Source: a virus | Reading direction: 5' to 3' (one strand) | Length of the DNA stretch: 37,186 bases | IMG/VR virus record: IMGVR_UViG_3300035180_002513 | Span: 1 to 37,186 of that record | Shown: positions 1 through 36,988 of the stretch, piece by piece | Numbering within the stretch: position 1 is the first letter of the stretch | Layout of the letters: the number at the start of each line of letters is the position of its first letter | Made by a program: the position numbers and the translations under genes | Notes under the pieces: generated by a model | What the model was told of the DNA's origin: nothing | Databases searched by the model: none | The model's input: only the letters and a program-made list of their open reading frames with translations

Positions 1-3000
1 GAGATGGTCAACATGCTCATGCTGGGCGGGTTGGCTAAAGGCGGCAAAGCGAGCTTGGATGCCATAGGCCAGCTGTCGGCCAAACCCGCGGCTAAGCCTG
101 CCCCAACAAAGCCAGGGGTGGAAGCAGTGCTTGATCGCCACCAAAGCGATCCCGCTGCCCCAACTTCTTCGGCAACCCCCAAATCAAGCGCAAGTTACGG
201 CGCCAAAGGTTCTGGCGACCCGGCAGTCCAAGAGCGTGTGGTCGAGGCTCACATCAACGACCTGGCAGAACAGATCCGCTCCGCACAAGACCCTCGCACA
301 GCGATGGCGGCTTTGTACGAGAAAGCTCCAACGCTGGCGGCGGAAGTCCAAAAGAAACTCGGCGGCGTCTCTGGGTTTGATCCTGACAATATAGCGACGG
401 CGCGCCGGGCGGAACGAACTGGTTCCCGCGATGCGACAGAGACTGAGTCATCGGCCGACTCCGCTATCAGGAAATTGCGCGCCGGACAATCTTGGGACAT
501 GACCGCGGAAGAGCGTGTGGCGCTCCGCGACGTCACCGGCTCGAGGAAGGCCGGCTTTACAACTGAGGCGGGGAAGGCCCTCGCCGCCGCCGGTCTGGCA
601 TTCGGGGCGTACGAGCTTGCGCAAAATGAAGCGTCTGACAAGGCCCTCGCCGGCGGGGCGGTAACGATCGGCGCGCTGCTTGCCGGCGGGAAGTACGGAC
701 TGAAAACGCTTGACCGCTTGCCGCAAGGTCGGGAAGCTTTCTCGAAGGCATCAGTGCGGGAGCAACTACAACGGCCCGACATTACAAAAGCAGAAAAGGA
801 AGTTCTGCAAGCCGTGCTGGACGCGCATCCGGGAGAAGAAATCTCCGCAGTGGCTCTGGTGAAGGGAGTCAAAGAAAGAACAGGCAACTTTGTTTTGAAG
901 CGTGCTGATGACTTGGCTTATGCCGAGTATGGGCTGGAGCGGATTGACCGAAGCACCGAGTCGATGCGCGATCCAGACGAATGGAGGGACGCGCCTCCAG
1001 AAGAAGCGGCGGCGGCAGCAGCGGGGGAAGTTCCGGCACTCACTCACATCTGGCGGCTGCCAGAATGGCTTGACGTTGGGCAAGCAAATCACTTTAATGA
1101 CCCACAATACTTTGGGCATACAAGGGTGTTTGAAGAGAACGGCATCCGCCACGTTGTAGAGATTCAAAGCGACCTTGCGCAGAAGGCGGGGAAGACGCTG
1201 ACGGAAGAAGAACGAACTCGCTTAATGGGGGAGCGTGATCGGGCTCAAGCTCGTATTGAAGCAGCGCTTGATCCAGCAAATCCTGACCGCGCTTCGCAAG
1301 CGACTCGCGAAGCAGTCCGTTCGTACAGGACTGTGCAGGCAGAAGCCAATGCTAAGCTAATGGCGCGCGGCGACGTTGAGCTCGTCCGCCCCCTCCTGAA
1401 AGACTGGCACAAGCGCCTCATTAGGGAAGAACTCGCCGACGCTGCCCGAAAGGGAGAAGCGAGCGTTCGGTTCGCTACGGCGGATACCGTGGCGAAGGTA
1501 GAAGGGTGGCCAGATCAGCGCTACGGGGCGGAACAACGAACCGGCGCTCCCACTTACCGCCCCGAGCATCAAGGCATCTACGATCGCTATGCAGGTGATG
1601 TTGAGAAGTTTCTCCGCCAACTTGGTGCCAAGACCCACCGCGACTCTGCTGGCCACACCTGGCTTGAGGTCCCTGTCGAAGGCTCCAAGCAGATGCCGGC
1701 TGGCCCACGCGTCTCCATGTTCGGCGGGACGGATTATAAACAGCTCGCAACCCTCGCCGGAGTGCTGGGCGGCGCTGTCCTGGCCAATCGCCTGTCCGAG
1801 GACCACGCGATCCTCGACACGCTCGTAGGGGCTGGCGCTGGTGCGTTCTTCGCTCGGTCACCCCGCCTCCTCGCGCACGTCTACGAAGACGTTAAGGCTA
1901 CAGTCGCTGCCGGAAAGTCCCCCCTCTCCGCGGGCTCCCTCAAGAACGCAGCAGGCGTTGCTGTTGTCGGTGGGGTGGTTGGCCTAACGCAGCACGACCC
2001 GGTAATGGGAGCGGCTATCGCCATACTGTACGGCGGGGCCAGGCTTCTTCCGAAGGCTGTCGATCGGGCTTTTGCTGGCGGCCTCACAGTCGCGCAACTC
2101 GGGAATACTCTTCGCGGAGCCATTGCCTCGCAAAACCGGGTGACCGCCGTCCTCTCTCGCGCCGTCCGCGAAGCTGTCCCAGACGCAGCTCGTCGTGCTG
2201 ACATCTCCCTCGCAATCGACAAGGGAGACCTCTCTCACCTCAGCCTCACTTCTATCGAGCAGAAGGCGGTAAACGCCTACAAGACTTGGACGAAGACGTG
2301 GGGAGAAATGGCGAAGGACGCTGGCTTGTTTCGTGACATGCTGGACAACTACGTCACCCACATCGTGGAGAAAGAAGGCCTTCCGCAAACCGAGGCACAA
2401 AAAGTTATTGCGGCAATCTTGGGCGAGGGGACTGGCGGCTCCGGCGGACTCGGGCAGAACAGCCCCTTTGCAAAGGCGCGGAAGTACGAGACGTTTGCCG
2501 ATCTCCAAAAGGCCCTCGAAGCGAAAAACCTTCGAATCAAGACCCTTGATCTTGCGGACATCATCGACATCTACGGGAAGTCCATGGCCAAGGCCGTGAA
2601 CAACCGGAAGTTCGTGACGGCGCTTGAAGGGGCGAAGACCGGCGACATGCCTATGATCCAAGATCGAGGCCGTGCTCCGCAGAACTACGTTTCCGTCAAC
2701 ACTCCGTCCCTTCGGAACAAGTTGGTTCACCCCGACCTCGCTCCAACCCTCCGGTTCATCATGGAGGCCCGCACAGACAACGCAATGATCAACGGTGCTC
2801 TGGCGATGTCGCAAGGCATCAAGCGGCTTGCCGTCGGCTACTCTTTCTTCCACGCCTGGAACCTGGGGGTGGCTGGCGTTGGTGCCGGGATGGCAGGGGC
2901 GCTTGCCAAGGAAGTCGGCGGCGCCCTTCTCAACCCAGTCATGACAAAGCTTGGCGGGAAAGATTTTGCCATCAACCGCCCAATTTCTGACGCGCTGGAG

Positions 3001-4056
3001 CAACTCCGTCGTGGTGGACTGGGAGATACGCTGGACGAAGGCCTGAAGAACGGCTTGCAACTTGAAATCCCTCATGACGTCGACGCCGCTGCGCTGATGA
3101 AAGTTGGGACGCTGATTGACAATGGCGTCGGAAAGATTTTTGGCAACACCCCTCGTATCGGGGAAAAAATCCTCGGGTCGATGGAGAAAGTTCAGACGCA
3201 ACTGTTCGACAAAGTTACTTGGGACTTCATGCACACCGGCCTCAAAGCCCTGACGTTTACGAAGGAGTTTGAGAAGGCCGTTGCGAAAGAAAAAGGCGAA
3301 CTGACGGACGCTCGTCGAAGTCAGATTGCTTCCGAAGTTGCTGCTTTCACGAATGACACCTTCGGCGGAATCGACTGGTTTCGGGTGGCGCAAGAGGCTG
3401 AGTCTAACCTCGGCCGCAACTTTGCGATGTCGGCTTTCTCTCCGAATGGGCGCATGGCAATGCAAGCAGCAATGTTTGCTCCCGACTGGACAATGTCAAC
3501 CTTTCGCGCGATGGCCAAGGCAATCCCAGGAAAGACGGATACCCCGCTCAACAAATCGCTTCACCAGGCTTACACTCTGCGCACAGCGCTCATGTACTTC
3601 ACTCTCATGGACGGCGTCAACTACCAGCTGAGTGGCCACCACATCTGGGAGAACAAGGACAAGATGATGCTGGAGTTTAAAGATGGCACAAAGATGCAAG
3701 CGTTTAAGCACGCTGCGGAAGGCCCTGAGTGGATCATCGACCCGTTGAAGACAGTGACTAACAAACTGGCTTATCCTTTGAAAGAGCCTTTCTCGCAGCT
3801 GGCGAAGCAGGAGTGGTTGGGCGGGCCAAAGATGAAAGGCGGCCGGCTCGAGCACGCTGCTGCGGGGCTAGCTCCTTTTCCTGCTAAGCCGTTCCTTGAC
3901 CCAGACCTCAGCGCAGGAGAGGCCGCCAAGAAGTCTATCAGCGGCTCTCTTGGCATGCAGACCTACGGGTCAAGTGACGACACGAAGGAGCGTCGCAAGG
4001 AACGCCTCGCTCGTGAAAAAGAACTTAAGAAGCGCAAGGAGGAAAACACGCCATGA
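1..4056 (+). CDS. Giant internal virion / DNA-ejection-type protein with a polyvalent-protein domain (5' end outside window)
   Basis: The frame is open from base 1, so the true start probably lies upstream; from the first ATG (position 4) it gives 1350 residues. Around residues 340-560 lies a pattern known from large polyvalent proteins of phages and mobile elements: HFNDPQYFGHTRV, then VEIQSDLAQ, a long charged helix, then LLKDWHKRLIREEL and a Y-D-R-Y-x8-FLRQLGAK segment. The rest is rich in Gly/Ala hydrophobic stretches (near residues 190-240, 575-620, 635-675, 945-970) that could insert into membranes. Size, these stretches and the position upstream of the tailspike fit a podovirus ejection protein that leaves the capsid with the DNA; this role is inference. 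The C-terminus is strongly charged (Lys/Arg/Glu). The stop overlaps the next start (ATGA), implying translational coupling. Confidence 0.7.
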   Translation, partial: EMVNMLMLGGLAKGGKASLDAIGQLSAKPAAKPAPTKPGVEAVLDRHQSDPAAPTSSATPKSSASYGAKGSGDPAVQERVVEAHINDLAEQIRSAQDPRTAMAALYEKAPTLAAEVQKKLGGVSGFDPDNIATARRAERTGSRDATETESSADSAIRKLRAGQSWDMTAEERVALRDVTGSRKAGFTTEAGKALAAAGLAFGAYELAQNEASDKALAGGAVTIGALLAGGKYGLKTLDRLPQGREAFSKASVREQLQRPDITKAEKEVLQAVLDAHPGEEISAVALVKGVKERTGNFVLKRADDLAYAEYGLERIDRSTESMRDPDEWRDAPPEEAAAAAAGEVPALTHIWRLPEWLDVGQANHFNDPQYFGHTRVFEENGIRHVVEIQSDLAQKAGKTLTEEERTRLMGERDRAQARIEAALDPANPDRASQATREAVRSYRTVQAEANAKLMARGDVELVRPLLKDWHKRLIREELADAARKGEASVRFATADTVAKVEGWPDQRYGAEQRTGAPTYRPEHQGIYDRYAGDVEKFLRQLGAKTHRDSAGHTWLEVPVEGSKQMPAGPRVSMFGGTDYKQLATLAGVLGGAVLANRLSEDHAILDTLVGAGAGAFFARSPRLLAHVYEDVKATVAAGKSPLSAGSLKNAAGVAVVGGVVGLTQHDPVMGAAIAILYGGARLLPKAVDRAFAGGLTVAQLGNTLRGAIASQNRVTAVLSRAVREAVPDAARRADISLAIDKGDLSHLSLTSIEQKAVNAYKTWTKTWGEMAKDAGLFRDMLDNYVTHIVEKEGLPQTEAQKVIAAILGEGTGGSGGLGQNSPFAKARKYETFADLQKALEAKNLRIKTLDLADIIDIYGKSMAKAVNNRKFVTALEGAKTGDMPMIQDRGRAPQNYVSVNTPSLRNKLVHPDLAPTLRFIMEARTDNAMINGALAMSQGIKRLAVGYSFFHAWNLGVAGVGAGMAGALAKEVGGALLNPVMTKLGGKDFAINRPISDALEQLRRGGLGDTLDEGLKNGLQLEIPHDVDAAALMKVGTLIDNGVGKIFGNTPRIGEKILGSMEKVQTQLFDKVTWDFMHTGLKALTFTKEFEKAVAKEKGELTDARRSQIASEVAAFTNDTFGGIDWFRVAQEAESNLGRNFAMSAFSPNGRMAMQAAMFAPDWTMSTFRAMAKAIPGKTDTPLNKSLHQAYTLRTALMYFTLMDGVNYQLSGHHIWENKDKMMLEFKDGTKMQAFKHAAEGPEWIIDPLKTVTNKLAYPLKEPFSQLAKQEWLGGPKMKGGRLEHAAAGLAPFPAKPFLDPDLSAGEAAKKSISGSLGMQTYGSSDDTKERRKERLAREKELKKRKEENTP

Positions 4057-5363
4057 ACATTCTTCTGATTGACAAGGGCGGGTATTTCCTCGACTTTGCC
4101 CTTCGCTGTCAGGCCGCTGGCCACTCCGTCCGCTGGTATCTTGGCAAAATGAAGGGGGGAGATCGCAACCCTCAAGGCGACGGAATGGGCATTTCGAAGA
4201 TCAACGACTGGACCACTTCCATGCGGTGGGCCGACTTGATCGTCCTTCCTGACAACTCGGTCTACATGAAGGAGCTGGGTCCCTACCACCGCAAGGGGTT
4301 TCCGATCTTTGGCCCGAACGAAGAGGCGGCGTCGTGGGAGCTTGACCGAGAGATTGGCCTTGATCGGCTGGAGGCAGCAGGAGTAGACCTCATCCCCGCG
4401 CACACCTTTCGCCGGATTGCCGAAGCCAAAGCTTTCCTCGCCTCAAACCCGCGGCGATTTGTCTCCAAACTGAACGCGGACAACGACACGAAGGCGATGA
4501 GTTACGTCTCCAAATCGGCTCGCGACATGATGTTCATGCTGGAGAAGTGGGAGAAGCTCGGCGCAATGAAGGGCGAGTTTATTTTCCAGGAGTTTGTCCC
4601 CGGCGTCGAGGTTGCCGTCGGCGGCTGGTTTGGGAAGGGAGGATTTTCCTCCTGGTTCCTGGAGAACTTTGAGCACAAAAAGCTTATGAATGATGACGTT
4701 GGGGTGAACACGGGGGAGATGGGTACGGTGATGAAGTACACCGAAAACAGCCCACTCGCAGAGTACCTCTTGCGTCCACTCGAAGGCGACTTGTATCGCA
4801 TGGGTTATGTTGGCTACATTGACGTAGCAGTGATGATTGGGAAGGACGGCACGCCATACCCTCTTGAGTTCACCACGCGCCCTGGCTGGCCTCTCTTTGA
4901 AATCCAACAGTCGCTTCACCCCGAGCCGGTCGAGTGGATGAAAGACCTTCTTGACGGGAAAGACTCGTTCAAGCCGAAGACAGACATAGCTCTCGGCGTC
5001 GTCATCGCCATCCCTGACTTTCCGTTCTGCGCCGCTCCGCACAAAGAAAAGTGCGGTTACCCCCTTTATGATTGGGAGAAGATTTCCGAAAGAAACTTCC
5101 ACCCGACGCAGGTCATGATGGGAGAAGCGCCGGACGAAAACCTTCGTACCAAGCCAGTCCTTGTCACAGCTGGCGATTGCGTCTGCACGATCTCGGGGAA
5201 TGGGCCGACGGTGATGGCTGCGCATAAGCACGCCTACGCCAACGTAAAGAAGCTCGAATTGCCCAACTCCCCGATGTATCGAACTGACATTGGAATGCGC
5301 GTTGGCCCGGCGCTCGATGCAGTGAAAAAGTACAAGTGGCTTTCTGACTGGAGATTCGAATGA
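4053..5363 (+). CDS. PurD-like ATP-grasp enzyme (phosphoribosylamine-glycine ligase family homologue)
   Basis: 436 residues, close to PurD length. Segments align by eye with PurD: an N-terminal LLIDKGGYFLDFAL nucleotide-fold strand, FGPNEEAASWELDR (PurD FGP-x-AA), IFQEFVPGVEVAVGGWF (ATP-grasp strand), VNTGEMGT (PurD NTGGMG) and PYPLEFTTRPGWP (PurD LEFNARFGDP). The ATP-grasp Glu and Arg of the last motif are kept while the usual Asn is Thr, so substrate use may differ. ATP-grasp enzymes join a carboxylate to an amine with ATP; PurD does this in purine synthesis. Its place inside a late structural operon, coupled by ATGA to the ejection protein and to the next gene, is unexpected for a purine gene and leaves open a role in modifying a virion protein, DNA base or small molecule. 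A strong AAGGAGG site precedes the start. Confidence 0.8.
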   Translation: MNILLIDKGGYFLDFALRCQAAGHSVRWYLGKMKGGDRNPQGDGMGISKINDWTTSMRWADLIVLPDNSVYMKELGPYHRKGFPIFGPNEEAASWELDREIGLDRLEAAGVDLIPAHTFRRIAEAKAFLASNPRRFVSKLNADNDTKAMSYVSKSARDMMFMLEKWEKLGAMKGEFIFQEFVPGVEVAVGGWFGKGGFSSWFLENFEHKKLMNDDVGVNTGEMGTVMKYTENSPLAEYLLRPLEGDLYRMGYVGYIDVAVMIGKDGTPYPLEFTTRPGWPLFEIQQSLHPEPVEWMKDLLDGKDSFKPKTDIALGVVIAIPDFPFCAAPHKEKCGYPLYDWEKISERNFHPTQVMMGEAPDENLRTKPVLVTAGDCVCTISGNGPTVMAAHKHAYANVKKLELPNSPMYRTDIGMRVGPALDAVKKYKWLSDWRFE

Positions 5364-5686
5364 GCCTGCAAGGATTCCTTTCCGGCGATTGGAACGCCGC
5401 TTGTTTTCGCTGCGGGCAGAAGCGCAAAGCGTCTGAGCTGCGGAAAGAATGGCAAGGGTACTATGTTTGCCCCGAGCATTGGGAACCCCGCCACCCACAA
5501 GATTTTGTCAAGGGAGTGCCGGATGACTCTTCTGTTCCCTGGTCGCAGCCAGAGGAATGGAACTACGTCGGGCCTCAGGCGCCAGTCAACACATGCACGA
5601 TCGATGGCCGTTTCTCCGTCGCTGGCCTTGCCACAGCAGGTTGCATGGTTGCTGGCACTTACCAGAACAATCCCACTCTCTCATAA
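5360..5686 (+). CDS. Small zinc-ribbon protein of the late operon
   Basis: 108 residues starting by ATGA overlap with the ATP-grasp gene. The N-terminal half has C15-x2-C18 followed by C37-x2-H40 (ACFRCGQ and YVCPEHW), a typical zinc-ribbon spacing. The middle is Trp/Pro rich and the C-terminus is Thr/Gly/Ala rich. Location between the ATP-grasp enzyme and the tailspike suggests co-expression with late proteins; it could be a minor virion component or a partner of the ATP-grasp enzyme. No named family recognised. Confidence 0.75.
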   Translation: MSLQGFLSGDWNAACFRCGQKRKASELRKEWQGYYVCPEHWEPRHPQDFVKGVPDDSSVPWSQPEEWNYVGPQAPVNTCTIDGRFSVAGLATAGCMVAGTYQNNPTLS

Positions 5687-5695
5687 GGAGCCATT

Positions 5696-7228
5696 GTGGC
5701 CGACACCGTTTTTTCTGACTATCAGACCATCGTCCCAGCCGTATGGCTCAACGACATCAACAACTTGCGTTACGGCGCAAGCAGTTCTGTGCGGGGGGCG
5801 GCGCTTCTTCAGTTCATGCAAACAACTCAGGCAGCCGGAGCGGCTGTTCGGGACTCGCAGAGCAAGATGCGGGAAGTTGTTTCGATCACTGACTTTGTCG
5901 GAGCTGACGCGACGGGAGCGACCAAGTCTACTGCTGCGATGGACAAGGCCATCACGTACCTCAGTGCGACGGGCGGTGAGATTGTTTTGCCACCCGGCAA
6001 CTGGCGGATTGACCCGCTGGCGTACAGCGGCATCAATGGCCTGAAGATTCGGGGATCGTCTTTCGGCTCATCGCTGCTGACTGTGTGCTCGACTGGCGTG
6101 GGACTGAAACTCTCCAACTGCCAAAAGTTCGAGCTGGACAACCTGACCGTTCAGTCTGAAGGCACTGCACAAGCGATTGCCAACTGCACTGGCATTCAGC
6201 TGGACACGGGATCAGGCAATTCTTTGATCACTGGCGTCTGGTTCCAAGGGTTTTCGCTCAATGGGTTGTCTCTCATCGGGACAGCGGGCGTGCCTTTGTC
6301 CGGGCACAAAGTGTTTCACTGCTACGGCCTCGGCAATGGGCAGTTCCAGTTTTACCTCTACTACACCAATGACTTCATGATCGGCTTCAACCAGGCTGGT
6401 TTCCTGGGGGCGGCGGCTCATGCGCAAGCGGGTTATCGGCTGGAGAATTCCCAAGCGGGCAAGATGGTCGGCAACTTTGCCTGGAACAACGCGATGGGCT
6501 GCCAAAATTTGAGCAGCAACTACAACGACATCACTGCCAATCGGTTTGAAGAGAGCGACCAGTACGGGTACTACCAGAGTGGCGGGGCGCGCACCCAATT
6601 CCTCGGGAACACCGTTCACACCAACTCGCAGAGCGGCACTGGCGTTTACGATGGCGCCTACTTTACTGCGGTAACTGGCGTCTTGATCGATGGGATGAAC
6701 ACTTTTTCGTTCAACGGCACCAAGCACGCGAACGACATCAACATCGACGCAGGATGCTCGCAAATCACGATCGGCCAGAACGACCTGAACAACTGGACGG
6801 CGTCGCCTGTGCGAATCTCCGGTGGGGCCGTGAGCACTTCTACCGCGACGCCCATGTCGGACTGCTTCAACAGTGCTGGTCAAGTTGCCGCCGGGACTAC
6901 CACTTACCTTGGCGTCAACGGCGCGAAGGCGAATGAGCTGGACACGCGAAAATTAGTTCGCGGTGGGAGGCTGCTTGAAGCCCGGATGTATGCCGAAACT
7001 GACGTCGCTCCTATCGGGGCGGAGACTTTCACATACGCCCTGATGAAGAATGGGGCAGCAACTTCCTGTACTTTCTCCATTACCGGCGCAAGCACGGTCA
7101 ACGCAACTTCTACGCAGAACCCGGCTGTGGTATACTCTCCGGACGACAAGTACTCAATCCGGTTGATGACGAGTGCGGGAGCGGCGCTGGCGCGACACAA
7201 TGTGTCGGTTGACTGGATTCCTTACTGA
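5696..7228 (+). CDS. Tailspike / tail fibre with pectate-lyase-like beta-helix
   Basis: 510 residues with a GTG start, chosen because AAGGAG sits just upstream and the reading frame begins MADTVFS. The N-terminal part (PAVWLNDINNLRYG) resembles head-binding or linker segments of podovirus tailspikes. From about residue 60 the sequence VVSITDFVGADATGATKST and then GGEIVLPPGNWRI is the classic entry to a pectate-lyase-3 right-handed beta-helix, followed by Asn/Gly-rich coils (about residues 110-380). The C-terminal 120 residues look like a beta-sandwich trimerisation or binding domain. Such proteins bind and often cut host surface polysaccharide; catalytic residues cannot be assigned by eye. 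The gene ends the late plus-strand operon and overlaps the 3' end of the convergent minus-strand gene by 7 nt. Confidence 0.85.
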   Translation: MADTVFSDYQTIVPAVWLNDINNLRYGASSSVRGAALLQFMQTTQAAGAAVRDSQSKMREVVSITDFVGADATGATKSTAAMDKAITYLSATGGEIVLPPGNWRIDPLAYSGINGLKIRGSSFGSSLLTVCSTGVGLKLSNCQKFELDNLTVQSEGTAQAIANCTGIQLDTGSGNSLITGVWFQGFSLNGLSLIGTAGVPLSGHKVFHCYGLGNGQFQFYLYYTNDFMIGFNQAGFLGAAAHAQAGYRLENSQAGKMVGNFAWNNAMGCQNLSSNYNDITANRFEESDQYGYYQSGGARTQFLGNTVHTNSQSGTGVYDGAYFTAVTGVLIDGMNTFSFNGTKHANDINIDAGCSQITIGQNDLNNWTASPVRISGGAVSTSTATPMSDCFNSAGQVAAGTTTYLGVNGAKANELDTRKLVRGGRLLEARMYAETDVAPIGAETFTYALMKNGAATSCTFSITGASTVNATSTQNPAVVYSPDDKYSIRLMTSAGAALARHNVSVDWIPY

Positions 7229-7544: not shown

Positions 7545-8740
7545 GGACCCGTGTAGACGAGCCGCGCTTTCCCTGGGTCACTGCTCTCGCTCATGTCAAG
7601 CTTGATCATGCCGCTGCGCATCAGCCCAGCCAAGATGCCTTCGAATGCTCGGGCATCGGGGAAGTGATCGTGGACGTAGCGATACGCCGTAGTGTATTCT
7701 ACTTTCCCGTACTTCTTAATGAAGTCAAGTAGTCGTTCTGCTTGGAGTGAATCCTCAGAACGGCCAATCCGGGAGAAGACGTGCGATGAAGTCGCTTCGG
7801 CCTCACCCAGCATGATTTCGGCCAGCTGCATGTGCCGGTCAGTGATCTGCATGGCGTCACTCTCACTGATCGAAAGGACAAGGGCGAGCTTGACCAAGTG
7901 ACCTTGCTTGCGAGCCAGATAGCCTTGGACTTGAGAGTCGCTCGATTCTTTAACAGTTTGCGTCCAGAGTTTTTCATACCACTTCCTTCCCCATTCGCGG
8001 GCTTCTGCAGTGAGAGTCATTGGACCGACAAGATTGACTGAGATGTACTCCAAGTCGGCAACAAGGCGCGCTTGCAAGTCATCGTGATCTTTTCGGACGT
8101 GCTCGTCGGGCCAGGCGATCAGCGTCCTTTTCTGATCGCCGTAAACGAAGATGCAGCGGGAGGTAAACCCGCCGCCGATCATACTCTGCGGGAAGTTGTC
8201 TGCGATCCAGTGCGGCGTGGTGCAGCCGATCATGTTAATCCAGGGCGCATTGATCGTATCGTTCCCTGACATTTTCGTCTCTTTCTCGAAGCCAGCTCGG
8301 CCGTCCCAGAGAGAGATGTAGAGGTTCACCATATCCTTGTCGATCGGATTGATCAGATTTCCAAGTTCTCCGCTCGCCAAGTTGAGGGCGGACATGGGAA
8401 GCCACTCTTCGCCGTACTGGAACATTTCCCCCGCCTCCGCGAATTTCTTCACAAGCGCTTGCCAGGTGATGACGTCTGGGCCGAAGTGAATGCCCGGCAC
8501 CTTCTTCAGTAAATCCATCCCATAGTCCATCGTCGTCGTCTTCGAGATGATACCGGGCGGAGCTACGAGGATAATGTAGAAGTTTGGTATCCACTTGAAC
8601 CGACGCATGTCAACCCAGACGCGTCGACGAAGCACTCCTGAAAGGGTAGACACTCCCGCGAAGAAGTGCATCATCTTTGGCGCCTCGGTCCCGTCCGTGT
8701 ACTCCATGTAGGACTTGAGCCAATCGCCTGCTTGGCGCAT
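7535..8740 (-). CDS. DUF3987-type helicase/primase-like ATPase
   Basis: 401 residues. The ATG at 8740 shares one base with the polymerase stop (TGATG), so it is preferred over the upstream TTG. Signatures of the DUF3987 (YfjI-like) family are visible: a P-loop position reading VAPPGIISKTTT (residues 59-70), SALNLASGELGNLI, and INMIGCTTPHWIADN...GGGFTSRCIFVYG. The P-loop is degenerate (Ser where Gly is usual before Lys), which is common in this family but leaves ATP hydrolysis unproven. A winged-helix-like C-terminus (YGKVEYTTAYRYVHDHF) may contact DNA. Directly downstream of the polymerase in phage replication modules, such proteins are thought to act as replicative helicases; the exact role is inference. 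Confidence 0.75.
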   Translation of the reverse strand: MRQAGDWLKSYMEYTDGTEAPKMMHFFAGVSTLSGVLRRRVWVDMRRFKWIPNFYIILVAPPGIISKTTTMDYGMDLLKKVPGIHFGPDVITWQALVKKFAEAGEMFQYGEEWLPMSALNLASGELGNLINPIDKDMVNLYISLWDGRAGFEKETKMSGNDTINAPWINMIGCTTPHWIADNFPQSMIGGGFTSRCIFVYGDQKRTLIAWPDEHVRKDHDDLQARLVADLEYISVNLVGPMTLTAEAREWGRKWYEKLWTQTVKESSDSQVQGYLARKQGHLVKLALVLSISESDAMQITDRHMQLAEIMLGEAEATSSHVFSRIGRSEDSLQAERLLDFIKKYGKVEYTTAYRYVHDHFPDARAFEGILAGLMRSGMIKLDMSESSDPGKARLVYTGPIA

Positions 8741-11142
8741 CAGCAATCTCCCCAGGACTTCTCGCTCGTCTTCACTCCGACGGGGATGATGAGTGGCTCG
8801 TCATAAGGCAGCTCAATCTTTGAAACTTCAGCCATTTCATTCAAAGCCTGTTGCCCGCGGAAAGTCGGAAACTGACCAACCAGCGAGTCGTGAACTTGAA
8901 GAAGAATCTGGATGTGCGGAAGCTGCTCATAAATCCGCATCCAGATCCGATTGATGTAGAGCGCAACTGTGGATTGGGGAATCCAAGCAATCGCCTCCCT
9001 GAACATGGCTTCGTCAGGGCGGTCGAAGTAATACCGCCTGTAGCCGAAAATGTTCTCGACAAACCGCCTCGAAGCTACTTTCTTTTTGTGCTCTTCTTGC
9101 CAGCGCTTGATCGCGGGATACTTCCCGAGGTACCAGGCCTGGGTCCGGGTCGCTTCGTGGATGGTGAGGCCAAGGCGCTGACTAAGGCCAGCCGGAGTTC
9201 CGAGGTAATGCGTACCGTGGGCGAACGACTTGAAGATACGGTACTTCGGGTTTTCGCTGCCGTCGGCGCGAGTTTTGTTGATTGTCGGGTCACGATAAAA
9301 CTCCCGTGCGGTTTCGACGTAAGGGTCGCGGCCCTCCGCCAGCATGGCTTTCATCTCGCGCTCGTCGCTCTCCCACACAACGATGCGAAGGTCGGCTTTG
9401 CTCAGGTCGGTGTCGAAGATTGTGTAGCCTGGGTCGGGGATGAAGATTTTTCGGACGTTGGGAAGGCGGAGGTCCGAATCGTCATCTTCACCTCCCTTGG
9501 GGATGTTTTGGAGGTTGGTCCCTGACCCAAAGGCGTTTTCCGAGCTTGAGAAGCGGAATGTTTCAGTTCCGCAGATGTTATAGCTCGTCCGCATTCTTCC
9601 ATCAATGTCCAGAGGGGCAAGGACGAAAGTACTGAGAAAGACACTGAGAGATCGGTATTCGCTGATCGCACGGATAAGAGGCCGGAGGACTGGCTCTTCG
9701 AGCGCGATTTTGTGGAGAGCTTTGTCGTCACAGGTCAAACTCCTTGGCATCCCTGGCTTGGGCTTGCCGTAGTTGGGTTTTTGCTTCAGGTCGCCGTAAA
9801 ACAACTCGCACATCTGTTTTGGTGAGCGCGGGTTGAGCTGGTGACCCAGGATGCGGCGAAAATACGCTTCGCGCTCGGACATCTCGTCCTGCAGCTCAAG
9901 TGCGAACTGCGCACGAACCTTCTTGTCCACAGCAACGCCGCGCTGCATACACTGAAGAACAGGCCAAAAGAACTTTTGCTGGAAAGCGTCGACCGATTCC
10001 AACTTGTATGCGCCGATTGTGTAGTCGAGGGCTTCCCCGACCTCCCGCGTCCTTACGCAGTCAACACAGTTGTACCGCCACAACTGATCCTCCGACATCT
10101 CCTTCGTCCAAGTCTTTCCGTCGTCCTTCCAGTAAACGTAGTGGTCACAGTACATTGAGGCTTGGAAAGCCAGGGACTTGGGCAGACCGCAGAACACTGA
10201 ATGGTGGGCGATCATCGTATCTTGGATGACGTTCGGAACGAAGTGCCAATGGCGATAAGTGTATTGCGCGTCGTAAAGAAGGTTCTGACCACGCACCTTG
10301 GCGTTGGGATGAGTCAGCAGGAGGTAGAGACGGTAGATGATCGCACTTTCCGCTTCCGCAAGCCAATAGCCTTCCCGATCCTCCACGCACATAAGCGGGA
10401 TGCACAGTGCTTTATCAAGGGCCCATGAAATTCCTGCACAAGCAATGTGGCCAGCTCGTGTCTCAAGGTCGAAGTCCAACCACATGGGCGCTGTTTCGAC
10501 TTGCGCTCGCAGGTCATCAAGCGTTCGTAGTACTTCATCCAGCGTCGGACGGACACTAAACGACCAGATGGGCTCATTGCTGTACTCCTTCGTCTCGCGC
10601 TCCTTCGCAGCCCGCTTCAAGTCGAGAATAGCCGCCGGCCTCTGCGACCACTCCCGCAGCACGGCCGAGGGATGCAACATTGGAATGACTTTGATCTTGG
10701 GCAGCTCCGGGGCCGTGGAGTAGATCTGACTCCCCCGCCACTTGAGTATACCCGTAGCGCCAGTCAAAGCCCACATAGCGGAGTTCCCGGCCGCGACGAT
10801 AATGTTGGGCTTGACAAGCTTGATCTCTGCAACCATCTGGTCGTACCCCTGGCGGACAATCGGGTCCACATAGAGGTTGCGGATCAGCTGCATCCCCGGC
10901 CGAATGTCCTTCTTTTTTCGAGCGATCCATTGATTGAGATCTCCGTAAGGTGGCCTGGCGTTGACGAGGTTGGTGACGAAACATTCGGAGCGGAGAATGC
11001 CCGCTTCGTGCAACATGCGGTTCATCTCCTCCCCTGCAGGGCCCATGAAGGGGGCGAGCTTTTGCTCTTCATACGCCCCCCAGCACTCTCCGATCACCAT
11101 GATCTTCGAGGAGGGAGGACCTTCACCCCTGCCGAGCGTCAT
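8740..11142 (-). CDS. Uracil-DNA-glycosylase-like domain fused to family A DNA polymerase
   Basis: 800 residues. Residues 1-190 resemble family 4/5 uracil-DNA glycosylases: GECWG (18-22), PFMGPAG (31-37), TNLVNARPP (57-65) and the HPS loop (157-159). Residues 215-400 are a 3'-5' exonuclease: D225-x-E227, N287-x3-D291 and Y357-x3-D361 (DEDDy). Residues 420-795 are a Pol I-type polymerase: motif A D579-LSKADLR, motif B with K638, and motif C H751-D752-S753. There is no 5'-3' exonuclease domain. Compared with E. coli Pol I, the steric-gate Glu of motif A is Asp, the Arg754 position is Tyr, the Phe762 position is His642, and the Glu after the catalytic Asp of motif C is Ser. Likely the replicative polymerase. 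It overlaps the Nmad1 gene upstream and the helicase-like gene downstream. Confidence 0.9.
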   Translation of the reverse strand: MTLGRGEGPPSSKIMVIGECWGAYEEQKLAPFMGPAGEEMNRMLHEAGILRSECFVTNLVNARPPYGDLNQWIARKKKDIRPGMQLIRNLYVDPIVRQGYDQMVAEIKLVKPNIIVAAGNSAMWALTGATGILKWRGSQIYSTAPELPKIKVIPMLHPSAVLREWSQRPAAILDLKRAAKERETKEYSNEPIWSFSVRPTLDEVLRTLDDLRAQVETAPMWLDFDLETRAGHIACAGISWALDKALCIPLMCVEDREGYWLAEAESAIIYRLYLLLTHPNAKVRGQNLLYDAQYTYRHWHFVPNVIQDTMIAHHSVFCGLPKSLAFQASMYCDHYVYWKDDGKTWTKEMSEDQLWRYNCVDCVRTREVGEALDYTIGAYKLESVDAFQQKFFWPVLQCMQRGVAVDKKVRAQFALELQDEMSEREAYFRRILGHQLNPRSPKQMCELFYGDLKQKPNYGKPKPGMPRSLTCDDKALHKIALEEPVLRPLIRAISEYRSLSVFLSTFVLAPLDIDGRMRTSYNICGTETFRFSSSENAFGSGTNLQNIPKGGEDDDSDLRLPNVRKIFIPDPGYTIFDTDLSKADLRIVVWESDEREMKAMLAEGRDPYVETAREFYRDPTINKTRADGSENPKYRIFKSFAHGTHYLGTPAGLSQRLGLTIHEATRTQAWYLGKYPAIKRWQEEHKKKVASRRFVENIFGYRRYYFDRPDEAMFREAIAWIPQSTVALYINRIWMRIYEQLPHIQILLQVHDSLVGQFPTFRGQQALNEMAEVSKIELPYDEPLIIPVGVKTSEKSWGDC

Positions 11143-11458: not shown

Positions 11459-12126
11459 CACAGCAACCTCGCGCGACGCAGCGCTTCAATCAGATATGGG
11501 TCCGGATCAGGCTGCTTCTGATACCAGTTCGCATAGCCTCGGTCAGCACGAGAGATCGGTTCGCCCTTGAACTTACCGAAGGTCCAGCGCGTTGGGACGC
11601 GGGCGGCTTCGGAGTAGACAAACATCTTCTCGTAATCCTCCTTGTCGATGCCTGCGCAGCGGCAGCACTTGTCGTACAGCAACGCGCAGAGACCGATGTC
11701 TTCCAACGCCGAGTGAGCGCCTTGCACCAGCAAGCGAGTGTTCGGGTTTGCCCCTTTGATGTGGTAGATCATCGCAGTCAGGGTGTGTGAGTCCAGGTCC
11801 GGGAACAGGGCTCTCGACATCGCCAGCGTGCAAATGCGCTTCATCCCGGCCGGCTGGCCAAGCGCCTTCCAGTCAAAGTCAATGTTGTGGCCGATCCAGT
11901 ACTTGGCTGCCGGCACACGTTTGAGGGCTTCTACCGCTGACGGCTTGCCGGCGAGGTCGCTCAGCAAGATGTGGTGAACCGCCATCGCCCCGAGCTTGAT
12001 CTGACCTTCAGGCCAAAAACGGAAAACAGCGCCTTCGAAGCCATTGGCCGATTGCCAGGCCAGTTCGATCACCTCGAGTGGGGGATCTTTGTCGGTCGTC
12101 TCGGTGTCCAGAATGATCGCGTCCAT
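11458..12126 (-). CDS. ExoX-like DEDDh 3'-5' exonuclease
   Basis: 222 residues, almost exactly the length of E. coli exodeoxyribonuclease X. ATG at 12126 overlaps the methyltransferase stop (TGATG). DnaQ-fold motifs: D7-T-E9 (ILDTETTD), HNIDFDWKAL with its Asp, and GAHSALEDIGLC giving His and Asp of the DEDDh class. As in ExoX, a short C-terminal module follows: FGKFKGEPISRADRGYANWYQKQ, the DUF3820-type pattern. The family degrades 3' ends of single- or double-stranded DNA. In this operon it probably supports replication or recombination; the polymerase has its own proofreading domain, so this is a second exonuclease. Confidence 0.87.
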   Translation of the reverse strand: MDAIILDTETTDKDPPLEVIELAWQSANGFEGAVFRFWPEGQIKLGAMAVHHILLSDLAGKPSAVEALKRVPAAKYWIGHNIDFDWKALGQPAGMKRICTLAMSRALFPDLDSHTLTAMIYHIKGANPNTRLLVQGAHSALEDIGLCALLYDKCCRCAGIDKEDYEKMFVYSEAARVPTRWTFGKFKGEPISRADRGYANWYQKQPDPDPYLIEALRRARLL

Positions 12127-13463
12127 CAAAAAAGTCCTTCGTCAAATTCAGACATGGCTTTGAGCCGCTTCGCCGCAATCCCGTAGGACCCTGGGTCGAT
12201 CTCTTGCCCCACGCAAGTCAGCTTCAGCTCGTTGCAGGCTTCGAGGGTTGAGCCGGAGCCCGCGAATGGGTCCCACACTTTGTCGCCGGGGGCGGCCGAA
12301 CGGCGGAGCAGGTCAACCAGGAGAGGGACAGGCTTTTGAGCGGGGTGGCCGAGTGCTGCGTCTTTTGCGTATGTCAGCACGTCGCCTACAACTGCGTTGA
12401 CTTTCTTCATACCCTTCACTGCAAAGAGAATGCACTCGTATTTCCGCTGGGGGCCTTGCGCTGGCCACGGAGCGCGGAAGCCGTTTGGGTTGTGCCAGAT
12501 CAGCGGGGTGCGAAACACTTTCCAGCCGGCGACTTCCGCAGCACCTTTAAACTCAGCAAAATTGCCCAAGTCGCAAAATGCGTACAAGTGCGCATCGGGC
12601 TTAGCCACGCGCCAAGCTTGCTCCGCAAATTTCCGGATGATGTGCTGCCAAGTCGCATAGCTGTCGTCGTAGAAATGAGCGACTGCCCCGGCGGCGCCAG
12701 TGCCGGAATCGCCGAACTGATCTGCTCCCATGCCGTAGGGCGGATCGGTCAGGATGATGTCAAAAGACTCGGGCATACAGCCTTCTGCCCAGACGAGCGA
12801 ATCTTCGTTGGTGAGCTGGTGGTTGGTCGACTTGAACGAACGCCCAATTACAGCGGCAAACTCGACGTTCTTCTTCTGTTCTTCTTTCTTCTTGACGATT
12901 TTGAAGGCCTCGTCAATCGAAGTCGCCTTAGCAACTTCTGGGTCTTTTGCGTGCTTCGCAATGATGATCTCACGCCGAGTGCGCTCTTGCGAGTTGCCGG
13001 CAGAAGACCCGCGAACTTCTTGCGCAATAGCCGCCACTGTGACGGGAAGCTCTCCTTTTGCCCCGGCCTGCGCGTTGCGAAGGTCAAAAAGCGCCGCAGT
13101 TGCCTGAGCGCGTTCCATCATCGTGAGGTCTTTTCGCCGGACGTTTTCCTCCAGCTCGGCCTCCATCGCATCGACGACAGAGAGCTCGCCGAGTGTCGTG
13201 TAGGGGACTTGGCCGGGGGGGACAACTTCCCCGTCGTGCTTGAACGTGCCGCCCAAGTCGTAAATGTCGGAGATGGCTCGCAGCCGCCGCTCGCCCGCGA
13301 CAAGAACAAACTTGTCTTGTTCCTCGCGGAGAACGATCGGATGCAGCAGGCCGTGCGCAGATTCACTGATCGAGGTGACCAGTTCTTGCAGGACTTCGGG
13401 ATCAAACTCTCGTCGTTGGCGATTGCTGGCCACTACGACAGAAGAGAGGGGAATGAGTTTCAT
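12126..13463 (-). CDS. ParB-like N-terminal domain fused to DNA methyltransferase
   Basis: 445 residues. Residues 1-130 form a ParB/Srx-type domain: VLREEQDKFVLVAGERRLRAI with GERR at 57-60 and ENVRR at 106-110. Residues 200-445 are an amino-methyltransferase with the catalytic motif DPPYGMG (240-246) before the SAM-binding motif DPFAGSGST (398-406), the order of the beta class; DPPY most often means N6-adenine. GHPAQKPVPL is the usual segment before motif I. A GGAG ribosome site precedes the ATG. Orphan phage methyltransferases of this kind protect DNA from restriction or mark it for replication or packaging; no cognate restriction enzyme is visible. The target sequence is unknown. Confidence 0.9.
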   Translation of the reverse strand: MKLIPLSSVVVASNRQRREFDPEVLQELVTSISESAHGLLHPIVLREEQDKFVLVAGERRLRAISDIYDLGGTFKHDGEVVPPGQVPYTTLGELSVVDAMEAELEENVRRKDLTMMERAQATAALFDLRNAQAGAKGELPVTVAAIAQEVRGSSAGNSQERTRREIIIAKHAKDPEVAKATSIDEAFKIVKKKEEQKKNVEFAAVIGRSFKSTNHQLTNEDSLVWAEGCMPESFDIILTDPPYGMGADQFGDSGTGAAGAVAHFYDDSYATWQHIIRKFAEQAWRVAKPDAHLYAFCDLGNFAEFKGAAEVAGWKVFRTPLIWHNPNGFRAPWPAQGPQRKYECILFAVKGMKKVNAVVGDVLTYAKDAALGHPAQKPVPLLVDLLRRSAAPGDKVWDPFAGSGSTLEACNELKLTCVGQEIDPGSYGIAAKRLKAMSEFDEGLF

Positions 13464-28903: not shown

Positions 28904-29003
28904 CAAAGAGCTTGAGCTCGGAGTCCTCGGAAAAATCTCCGCGTACCGTGCCATTGATGAACTGAACTACGAGCAACTAATTTCGGAGCTGACCAATGAG
29001 TGA
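28767..29003 (+). CDS. Small helical protein nested in the portal 3' end
   Basis: 78 residues. The start overlaps the portal gene by 137 nt in a different frame, with AGGAG upstream of the ATG. The product reads as a normal globular helical protein (LTPEAFQEWRHHPVTQAVLLVLDLQVKQAQETWARGEY, shown in short: LTPEAFQEWRHHP and LDLQVKQAQETW), in contrast to the low-complexity portal tail over the same bases. Short helical genes after the portal are common in related phages. The stop overlaps the GroES-like gene start by 8 nt. Confidence 0.7.
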   Translation: MEPKHLTPEAFQEWRHHPVTQAVLLVLDLQVKQAQETWARGEYRRDKELELGVLGKISAYRAIDELNYEQLISELTNE

Positions 29004-29337
29004 ACCCACTACCAACACCTCAGGCGTGACCCCTCGTGGACGCGCTGTGCTGGTGCGTCCCTACGCCGTCGAAGAGAGGACGGCTGCTGGCATCATCCTC
29101 GCCAACGAGACAATCAAGAAAGACCAACTGGCAGAGCAACGCGCCATCGTTATTTCCGTCGGGCCAGAAGCTTGGCGGCAAGAATCCGAGCCACGCGCCT
29201 TGCCGGGAGACCGCGTCCTCTTTTCAAAGTGGGCCGGCTACTCCTTGACAGGCCCTGCCGATGACCAGCAGTATCGGGTCGTAAATGACTCCGACATCTT
29301 CATGGTCATCACGAAGGAGAAGAGTGATGGACACTGA
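28996..29337 (+). CDS. GroES-like co-chaperonin
   Basis: 113 residues. The pattern PRGRAVLVRPYAVEERTAAGIIL matches GroES (core strand plus mobile loop), then AEQRAIVISVGPEAW and PGDRVLFSKWAGYSL, ending YRVVNDSDIFMVI, all in GroES order; about 15 residues longer than bacterial GroES. Phage co-chaperonins (such as T4 gp31) partner with host GroEL to fold the capsid protein. Its position between portal and scaffold/capsid genes supports a capsid folding role; partner is inference. Confidence 0.85.
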   Translation: MSEPTTNTSGVTPRGRAVLVRPYAVEERTAAGIILANETIKKDQLAEQRAIVISVGPEAWRQESEPRALPGDRVLFSKWAGYSLTGPADDQQYRVVNDSDIFMVITKEKSDGH

Positions 29338-35482: not shown

Positions 35483-36988
35483 ATGCCTGCCCCCAAAGAA
35501 ATGCCTTGGCCTCCGGTCACCGAGCCCGTGCTGTACGACTACACCAAGGGTCCGTACATGTACAACTGTTACGCTGAGAAAGACTCCATCGGCGGCGTGT
35601 CTGCGGTCAAACGGCAAGGGTGGGCGCAGCGGTTTTCTACTTCCGGTGCGGCGAACTATCACGGCCAAGGGTTTTTCATTCGCAAAGATGGAACTCGTGT
35701 CACAATCACGGAGCAAGGCGCATTTGCAAATGAAGTGCCCGTAGTGGGGAGCTTCCCAGTCTCCGTCGTCGGTCAGATGTATTGGTTTGATGAGACCAAT
35801 GGGACTCCCAGTTTCACTTACGCGAGCAACGGAACTGCGGGATATACCTACTCTTCGGCTGGCGCTTGGGCGCAGATCACGGCAGCCAATTACGTCGCCA
35901 TAGGGACGACAGTGCCCGGCAGCGCTTACCTCGACGGCACGCTCTACGTGATGGATGCTCAGTGCCGTATCTACGGCAGTGCGATCAATGACTTGACGAC
36001 TTGGTCTGCCCTCAACCTGATTCAGGCGCAGGATTCTCCTGGAACAGGAGTGGCGCTTGCGAAGCATCTCTCGTTTGTTGTTGCTCTGAAAGATCGCGCG
36101 ATCGAGTTCTTTTACGACGCGGCCAACCCCACAGGGTCTCCGCTTCTCCCGGTCCCCAACTCCAAGCTGAACATCGGCTGTCGTTACCCACACAGCGTGA
36201 GGCGCTCAGGAAACGATCTTCTGTGGGTTGCCTGGTCTACCGAAGGTGGGCCGAGCGTGGTTCGCTTGCAGGGCATGAAGCTGCAATCTCTTTCCAATCC
36301 CTACATTGACAGGTGGTTGTTGGCGCAGGCAACGGTGGGGAATGGCGCGCTCCCAGACCTCGTGGGGTTTGTCTACTCCATGGCGGGGCACGTCTTCTAC
36401 CAGTTGACTTACGTCACGACCGCGGTCGGAGCATTCGGCAACATCCTTGTTCCAGCGACGGACTGGCGCACAGGACTCGTGTACCCAAGCCTCGTTGTCG
36501 ATGTCGAATCTGGCTCGTGGTCGTTCTTCCAGCAAGCTCCCTTTCTTCTCGCTTCTTGCCAGACACCAGGCGGGGTCGATCGCTTGCTGGATTTCACGTA
36601 CTCTGGGCAGTGGAGTCTTCTTCCTTACGGGCAGTGGGTGATCGACAGCAACCCTATCTACTCGATCCCTGCGACGGGCGTGGCAATCTCCGCAATTCTC
36701 CAGACCGCCCCGCTTGACTTCGGCTCGCAGTTGACAAAAGTGCTCCAGCGCCTTTACCTCAACATTGACAAGTCAGATCCGTCGTCTGCGGGGTCGATCC
36801 AGATTTCTTGGTCTGACGACAACTACAGGTCTTGGACTCCGTGGGTCACAGTGGACACTTCTCAGCCGAAGTCTTTTGTTGCCCAGCTAGGTTCATTCGT
36901 GAAAAGAGCTTTCCGTTTTCAGCACACTGCGCAAGCAACGCTGCGGTTCGACGCCCCCCAACTCGACCTCTTGGTCGGAACCATTTAA
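35483..36988 (+). CDS. P22 gp10-like tail knob / DNA stabilisation protein
   Basis: 501 residues, near the 472 of P22 gp10. Beta-propeller-like repeats of short strands with Trp/Gly/Asn loops (YWFDETNGTPSFTY, AYLDGTLYVMDAQC, LLWVAWSTEGGPSVVRL) and a beta-rich C-terminal domain. Gp10 proteins plug and stabilise packaged DNA at the tail. The gene directly follows the gp4-like gene, as in P22-like phages. Confidence 0.8.
   Translation: MPAPKEMPWPPVTEPVLYDYTKGPYMYNCYAEKDSIGGVSAVKRQGWAQRFSTSGAANYHGQGFFIRKDGTRVTITEQGAFANEVPVVGSFPVSVVGQMYWFDETNGTPSFTYASNGTAGYTYSSAGAWAQITAANYVAIGTTVPGSAYLDGTLYVMDAQCRIYGSAINDLTTWSALNLIQAQDSPGTGVALAKHLSFVVALKDRAIEFFYDAANPTGSPLLPVPNSKLNIGCRYPHSVRRSGNDLLWVAWSTEGGPSVVRLQGMKLQSLSNPYIDRWLLAQATVGNGALPDLVGFVYSMAGHVFYQLTYVTTAVGAFGNILVPATDWRTGLVYPSLVVDVESGSWSFFQQAPFLLASCQTPGGVDRLLDFTYSGQWSLLPYGQWVIDSNPIYSIPATGVAISAILQTAPLDFGSQLTKVLQRLYLNIDKSDPSSAGSIQISWSDDNYRSWTPWVTVDTSQPKSFVAQLGSFVKRAFRFQHTAQATLRFDAPQLDLLVGTI

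Follow-up and report, generated by a model that had tools for sequence, protein, structure and literature searches.

The PurD-like gene and its neighbours

The window analyzed here, a 37,186-bp virus record, carries on its plus strand an intact 436-aa open reading frame (4053-5363) that begins with ATG and encodes a protein resembling PurD, the GAR synthetase. Five genes define its setting:

4..4056, plus strand: large internal/ejection-type protein, 1350 aa, with a 4-bp overlap with the PurD-like gene (assigned from size and position)
4053..5363, plus strand: PurD-like ATP-grasp protein, 436 aa, comprising an N-domain, an ATP-grasp domain and a GARS C-domain (open reading frame, Pfam, TIGR00877, predicted structure)
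5360..5686, plus strand: Cys-rich (CxxC) protein, 108 aa, with a 4-bp overlap with the PurD-like gene (a cluster of 50, with homologues across many related loci)
5696..7228, plus strand: probable beta-helix tailspike, 510 aa (PF13229, 2.2e-5, just below the cut-off)
35483..36988, plus strand: tail nozzle/head-closure-like protein (PHROG 578)

The start of the PurD-like gene shares ATGA with the stop of the preceding frame and has GGAGG upstream of the ATG, and its own end overlaps the start codon (ATG) of the frame that follows, at 5360. These overlaps and the structural-gene setting bear out much of a prior sequence-only reading, which had placed the gene between an ejection protein and a tailspike, although "ejection" is a matter of size and position and "tailspike" of a beta-helix match below the cut-off. 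A PHROG search with the product of the upstream frame gave no match, and Pfam found nothing in three large proteins encoded upstream in related loci. The window is probably a fragment, because no exact end repeat was found in it and it is missing the genes that relatives carry between the nozzle and the large internal protein.

The same reading had considered a purine-synthesis homologue out of place here, a view that the related loci contradict, since the position is conserved across a large phage group. In 50/50 loci in which the nozzle-like and PurD-like genes are both visible on the plus strand, the former lies 4.1-7.1 kb before the latter and a small internal protein is encoded in the interval. 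The PurD-like gene is preceded, directly or across one or two small ORFs, by a large ORF of mostly 600-1,500 codons; the 4-bp overlap recurs in roughly one-quarter of 80 loci, and lysis or tail-fibre type genes follow downstream. Between the nozzle and PurD-like genes, 15 of the 50 loci encode a GNAT protein and 11 an Asp/Asn-hydroxylase-like protein (both in 4, either in 22, neither in 28). PF05118 and PF00583 score above cut-off in several related loci, and one BLAST cluster (cluster 9) mixes cupin-like with hydroxylase-like proteins. With 28 loci devoid of both, the idea of an obligatory partner set is unsupported; both are also missing from 18 nozzle relatives that have no PurD-like gene, in phages too divergent for a test of association. 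In Paraburkholderia loci, the hydroxylase-like gene overlaps the GNAT-family gene upstream of internal/ejection-type genes (L042:4254-5311 and L043:4534-5576).

Elsewhere in the window, a GroES-like co-chaperonin gene directly follows the portal gene (28996-29337, plus strand). The minus strand encodes an N6/N4 DNA methyltransferase fused to a ParB-like N-terminal domain (12126-13463) and a family A DNA polymerase with an N-terminal uracil-DNA-glycosylase (UDG) superfamily domain (8740-11142; PF03167, 72 bits). A MazG gene is also present, and the replication genes lie on the strand opposite the PurD-like gene.

Fold and active site of the PurD-like protein

Domain searches and structure prediction confirm that the frame encodes a PurD-like ATP-grasp protein, as the sequence-only reading had proposed. 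The protein matched GARS_A (PF01071) at 2.4e-7, with 31.2 bits against a gathering score of 27, and this score and the conserved Mg-ATP residues place it in the ATP-grasp superfamily; the Pfam match to GARS_C (3.6e-5) was below the cut-off. The TIGR00877 purD equivalog model matched at 2.3e-21, with 76.1 bits, far under its 288-bit cut-off; the protein has the three-domain fold of PurD at a score outside the curated equivalog. A PHROGs search with the protein returned nothing at E 0.1. The structural model, built with 46 aligned family members, had a mean pLDDT of 94.8 across all domains and a pTM of 0.92. The best 15 Foldseek rows from the PDB were all GAR synthetases, and VIA-align gave Z scores of 31.3-35.8 for 13 PurD entries (the top one 35.8, to 2YW2 over 392 residues) before falling to ~24 for PurK and PurT; the fold is therefore that of PurD, more than that of ATP-grasp proteins in general. 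Against a viral structure library, the best TM was 0.44, with no PurD-like entry among the matches listed.

Like PurD/GAR synthetase (TIGR00877; PDB 2YW2, 2XCL, 1GSO), the phage protein has the PurD domain order, most ATP/Mg residues, the HK..TG-MG loop, E-x-x-x-R and a C-terminal R-x-D-I-G, but it is only ~20% identical to PurD entries in the PDB, reads LEFT for LEFN and is encoded within a phage structural gene block. PurK and PurT are ATP-grasp ligases too and also carry a small residue (A/S) in place of the N, but they have lower Z scores, other substrates and another C-domain, and served as the outgroup of our tree. Five features within the gene carry the comparison:

4053..4370, plus strand: N-domain, residues 1 to ~106, without the canonical GGREHA and GPEAPL (alignment)
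4461..4472, plus strand: VSKL, residues 137-140; K139 corresponds to the ATP-contacting Lys143 of Aquifex PurD, in 46/46 sequences (alignment)
4668..4724, plus strand: FEHKKLMNDDVGVNTGEMG, residues 206-224, the PurD-diagnostic loop; E207 (=D212), K209 (=K214) and TGE are invariant (alignment)
4863..4892, plus strand: LEFTTRPGWP, residues 271-280, with LEFTTR at 271-276 (alignment)
5277..5297, plus strand: YRTDIGM, residues 409-415, keeping the R-x-D-I-G signature of the PurD C-domain (alignment)

Substrate-contacting residues of Aquifex PurD have been named from a QM/MM (computed) model (PMC8880213). In our alignment, K143, E192, K214, E100 and R287 of that enzyme are identical in 46/46 phage sequences, and D212 is replaced by E in every one. 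K139, E186, K209, E96, E272 and R276 of the phage protein are invariant throughout the 46. Three further changes are equally fixed: K103 to R and E185 to Q (Aquifex numbering), and N285 of the LEFN motif to T, the last of these also in 3/3 cellular paralogues. Within LEFTTRPGWP, E272 and R276 are thus retained, N is replaced by T at 274 and D by W at 279, and the following L281 stands in place of the glycine-contacting Glu292, a replacement by L found in 39/46 phage sequences. GGREHA, GPEAPL and the D and E of GDPE are all lost in the family, and the combined PurD motif (GGREHA with LEFNxRxGDPE) is accordingly absent. Taking as invariant the columns constant in 12 full-length canonical PurDs, and as kept those conserved in ≥90% of phage sequences, the family keeps 2/21 invariants in the N-domain, 16/39 in the ATP-grasp domain and 6/11 in the C-domain.

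The pattern thus appears to be one of retained ATP machinery with both substrate sides altered. The sequence-only reading had pointed to the active site as the place to look, and prediction and alignment agree there on a PurD fold with ATP/Mg residues mostly kept and the glycine contact lost. It had also taken the N-to-T change as the sign of a new substrate. The altered substrate-side residues fit that suggestion, but N-to-T by itself is a weak argument, being fixed family-wide and shared with cellular paralogues, and it is neither inactivating nor uniquely telling, because the same column holds A in E. coli PurK and S in E. coli PurT. A new substrate is suggested instead by the acceptor-side and glycine-side changes (GGREHA, GPEAPL, the D/E of GDPE, and E292). 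Because the manner in which phosphoribosylamine binds PurD is still unsettled (PMC8880213), we infer the loss of this acceptor site from the residue changes.

Distribution and phylogeny

Relatives of the PurD-like protein are very numerous at 35-66% identity, which excludes chance as an explanation for the reading frame. One sequence query retrieved 37 related viral loci, and an IMG/VR profile query gave at least 538 confirmed matches to the family. MW202796, a phage from Manatee Spring, has a 45% identical gene within an unannotated stretch. At L029:10001-11322, a frameshift splits the gene, possibly through sequencing error. A search of 84,980 genomes returned only five loci, two in Paraburkholderia with phage gene order and three on MAG contigs, and a 398-genome sample of the same phylum contained no further member; two genome hits at ~123 bits were ruled out as canonical LEFN PurDs. 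Where Paraburkholderia and Sphingomonas genomes contain a phage-type copy (G001-G003), they also keep a canonical purD of their own. Our literature search found no paper describing this phage family, and the thaumarchaeal "purD" of PMC6563490 is merely an integration site.

The gene is under purifying selection, with a median dN/dS of 0.069 over 97 pairs. In three contigs, an insert of ~320 residues that begins with Cys and ends with GN stands exactly before TGEMGT; both a solved intein (6e-6) and a homing-endonuclease intein (0.005) match it. The catalytic loop of these genes is thus interrupted by an intein that is in part LAGLIDADG-endonuclease-like (L033:6161-8452, L034:490-2781, L035:3993-6284).

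In a tree rooted on PurK and PurT, in which the Thermus PurD is partial, the phage sequences are monophyletic (support 98) and join three cellular proteins, from Halarchaeum, Roseomonas and Sphingomonas, in a clade with support 100. Canonical PurD is itself monophyletic (support 98 with 9 sequences, 79 with 13), and the phage/cellular clade is its sister. The phage protein therefore falls outside canonical PurD, and this placement, with the low identity, rules out recent acquisition from a host; a position inside host PurD was what the sequence-only reading had named as its refutation.

We call this clade LEFT-type, as the N position is T and the NTGGMG loop contains TGE in 46/46 phage sequences, and T with TGEMGT occurs in 3/3 cellular ones. 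The Halarchaeum (WP_123078225.1) and Sphingomonas (WP_187715999.1) proteins are annotated "phosphoribosylglycinamide synthetase C domain-containing protein" and that of Roseomonas (WP_207415351.1) "hypothetical protein". These paralogues share LEF-T-x-R-F-G and TGEMGT with the phage family but are only ~30% identical to it and are stand-alone plasmid genes with no common neighbourhood. On the Roseomonas plasmid, the gene lies between type III polyketide synthase and aminotransferase genes on the opposite strand (L112:6574-10383). Phage-encoded ATP-grasp genes are also found in podoviruses such as Pa11virus (PMC6209634), but there the genomes also encode amidoligases and amidotransferases.

Candidate functions

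Our results favour, with reasonable but far from full confidence, a model in which the phage protein is an active carboxylate-amine ligase of the PurD lineage, belonging to an old paralogous clade distinct from canonical GAR synthetase, acting late and on a substrate other than that of PurD. Catalytic activity and a changed substrate are suggested by the residue pattern, and late action by the gene order. Such an enzyme would most likely bind Mg-ATP as PurD does, phosphorylate a carboxylate to an acyl-phosphate and hand the acyl group on to an amine; the carboxylate donor would not be free glycine, nor the amine acceptor phosphoribosylamine. It would probably be produced late, alongside the internal virion proteins, and its substrate during assembly or lysis may be part of the virion, part of the envelope or a small molecule. 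More tentatively, this widespread family, derived from a PurD paralogue and residing in a virion/ejection module, could couple a small acid, carboxylic or amino, either to part of the virion or to a molecule of the host envelope.

Modification of virion proteins or peptides is one particular form of the favoured ligase model, and as a specific proposal we consider it unlikely: internal or tail proteins would be decorated by the ligase, either alone or with help from the operon's GNAT and Asp/Asn-hydroxylase-like proteins. The gene directly follows that for the large internal protein, GNAT and/or hydroxylase-like genes occupy the preceding interval in 22 of the 50 loci, and the replacement of E292 by L hints that the donor has no free alpha-amino group at this site. 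However, neither partner is found in the majority of these loci and both in only 4, and we know of no PurD-type ligase with a protein substrate.

Slightly less probable still is that the protein is a true, if divergent, GAR synthetase, whose gene would serve as an auxiliary metabolic gene raising host purine synthesis during infection. Surveys place virus-borne purD/GART among the auxiliary metabolic genes of purine metabolism (PMC11360552, PMC11097641), the phage protein has the complete-domain PurD fold with R-x-D-I-G and the HK..TG-MG loop, and the N position tolerates a small residue in PurT and PurK. Against this stand the loss of GGREHA, GPEAPL, the GDPE acidic residues and the glycine contact, the score far below the equivalog cut-off and the place of the gene among virion genes. 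In addition, no linked purine pathway was found: AIRS_C (PurM/PurL) had no match among 20 long phage records, PurF had a single partial one (40.5 bits against a 350-bit cut-off), and E. coli PurK, E, T, F, M, N, L and H probes matched nothing at 1e-4 in 107 phage loci. The PurF match lies in a 467-residue open frame (G413, the record of L065, 19112-19735, minus strand), perhaps that of another glutamine-amidotransferase-type protein. A plain purine role appears less likely because PurM/PurL and full-length PurF are missing from these 20 records, an absence that argues against a simple purine boost without singling out one alternative.

We regard a catalytically dead structural or scaffold virion protein as very improbable. 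Virion genes adjoin the gene, and K103R, E185Q and N285T fall at the ATP/Mg site, which may make activity weak; yet six active-site residues are invariant, dN/dS is very low, and the intein sits at the catalytic loop, where inteins are commonly placed in active enzymes. Least probable of all is a precursor enzyme for DNA-base or nucleotide modification, for which the recruitment of another purine enzyme, PurZ, to phage base modification and the MazG and UDG-polymerase genes in the window could be cited, but the gene has a structural position, the replication genes lie on the opposite strand and no base-modification partner gene was seen nearby. The evidence does not separate virion-protein ligation, base modification and metabolism, the three roles offered by the sequence-only reading, although a plain purine role is the less likely.

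If the family is not a GAR synthetase, counts of viral "purD" auxiliary genes in metagenomes would be partly wrong, and a large phage group would carry an unassigned enzyme among its virion genes. Because the gene is single and compact, with a high-confidence predicted structure and close cellular paralogues, the chemistry of this enzyme is directly testable.
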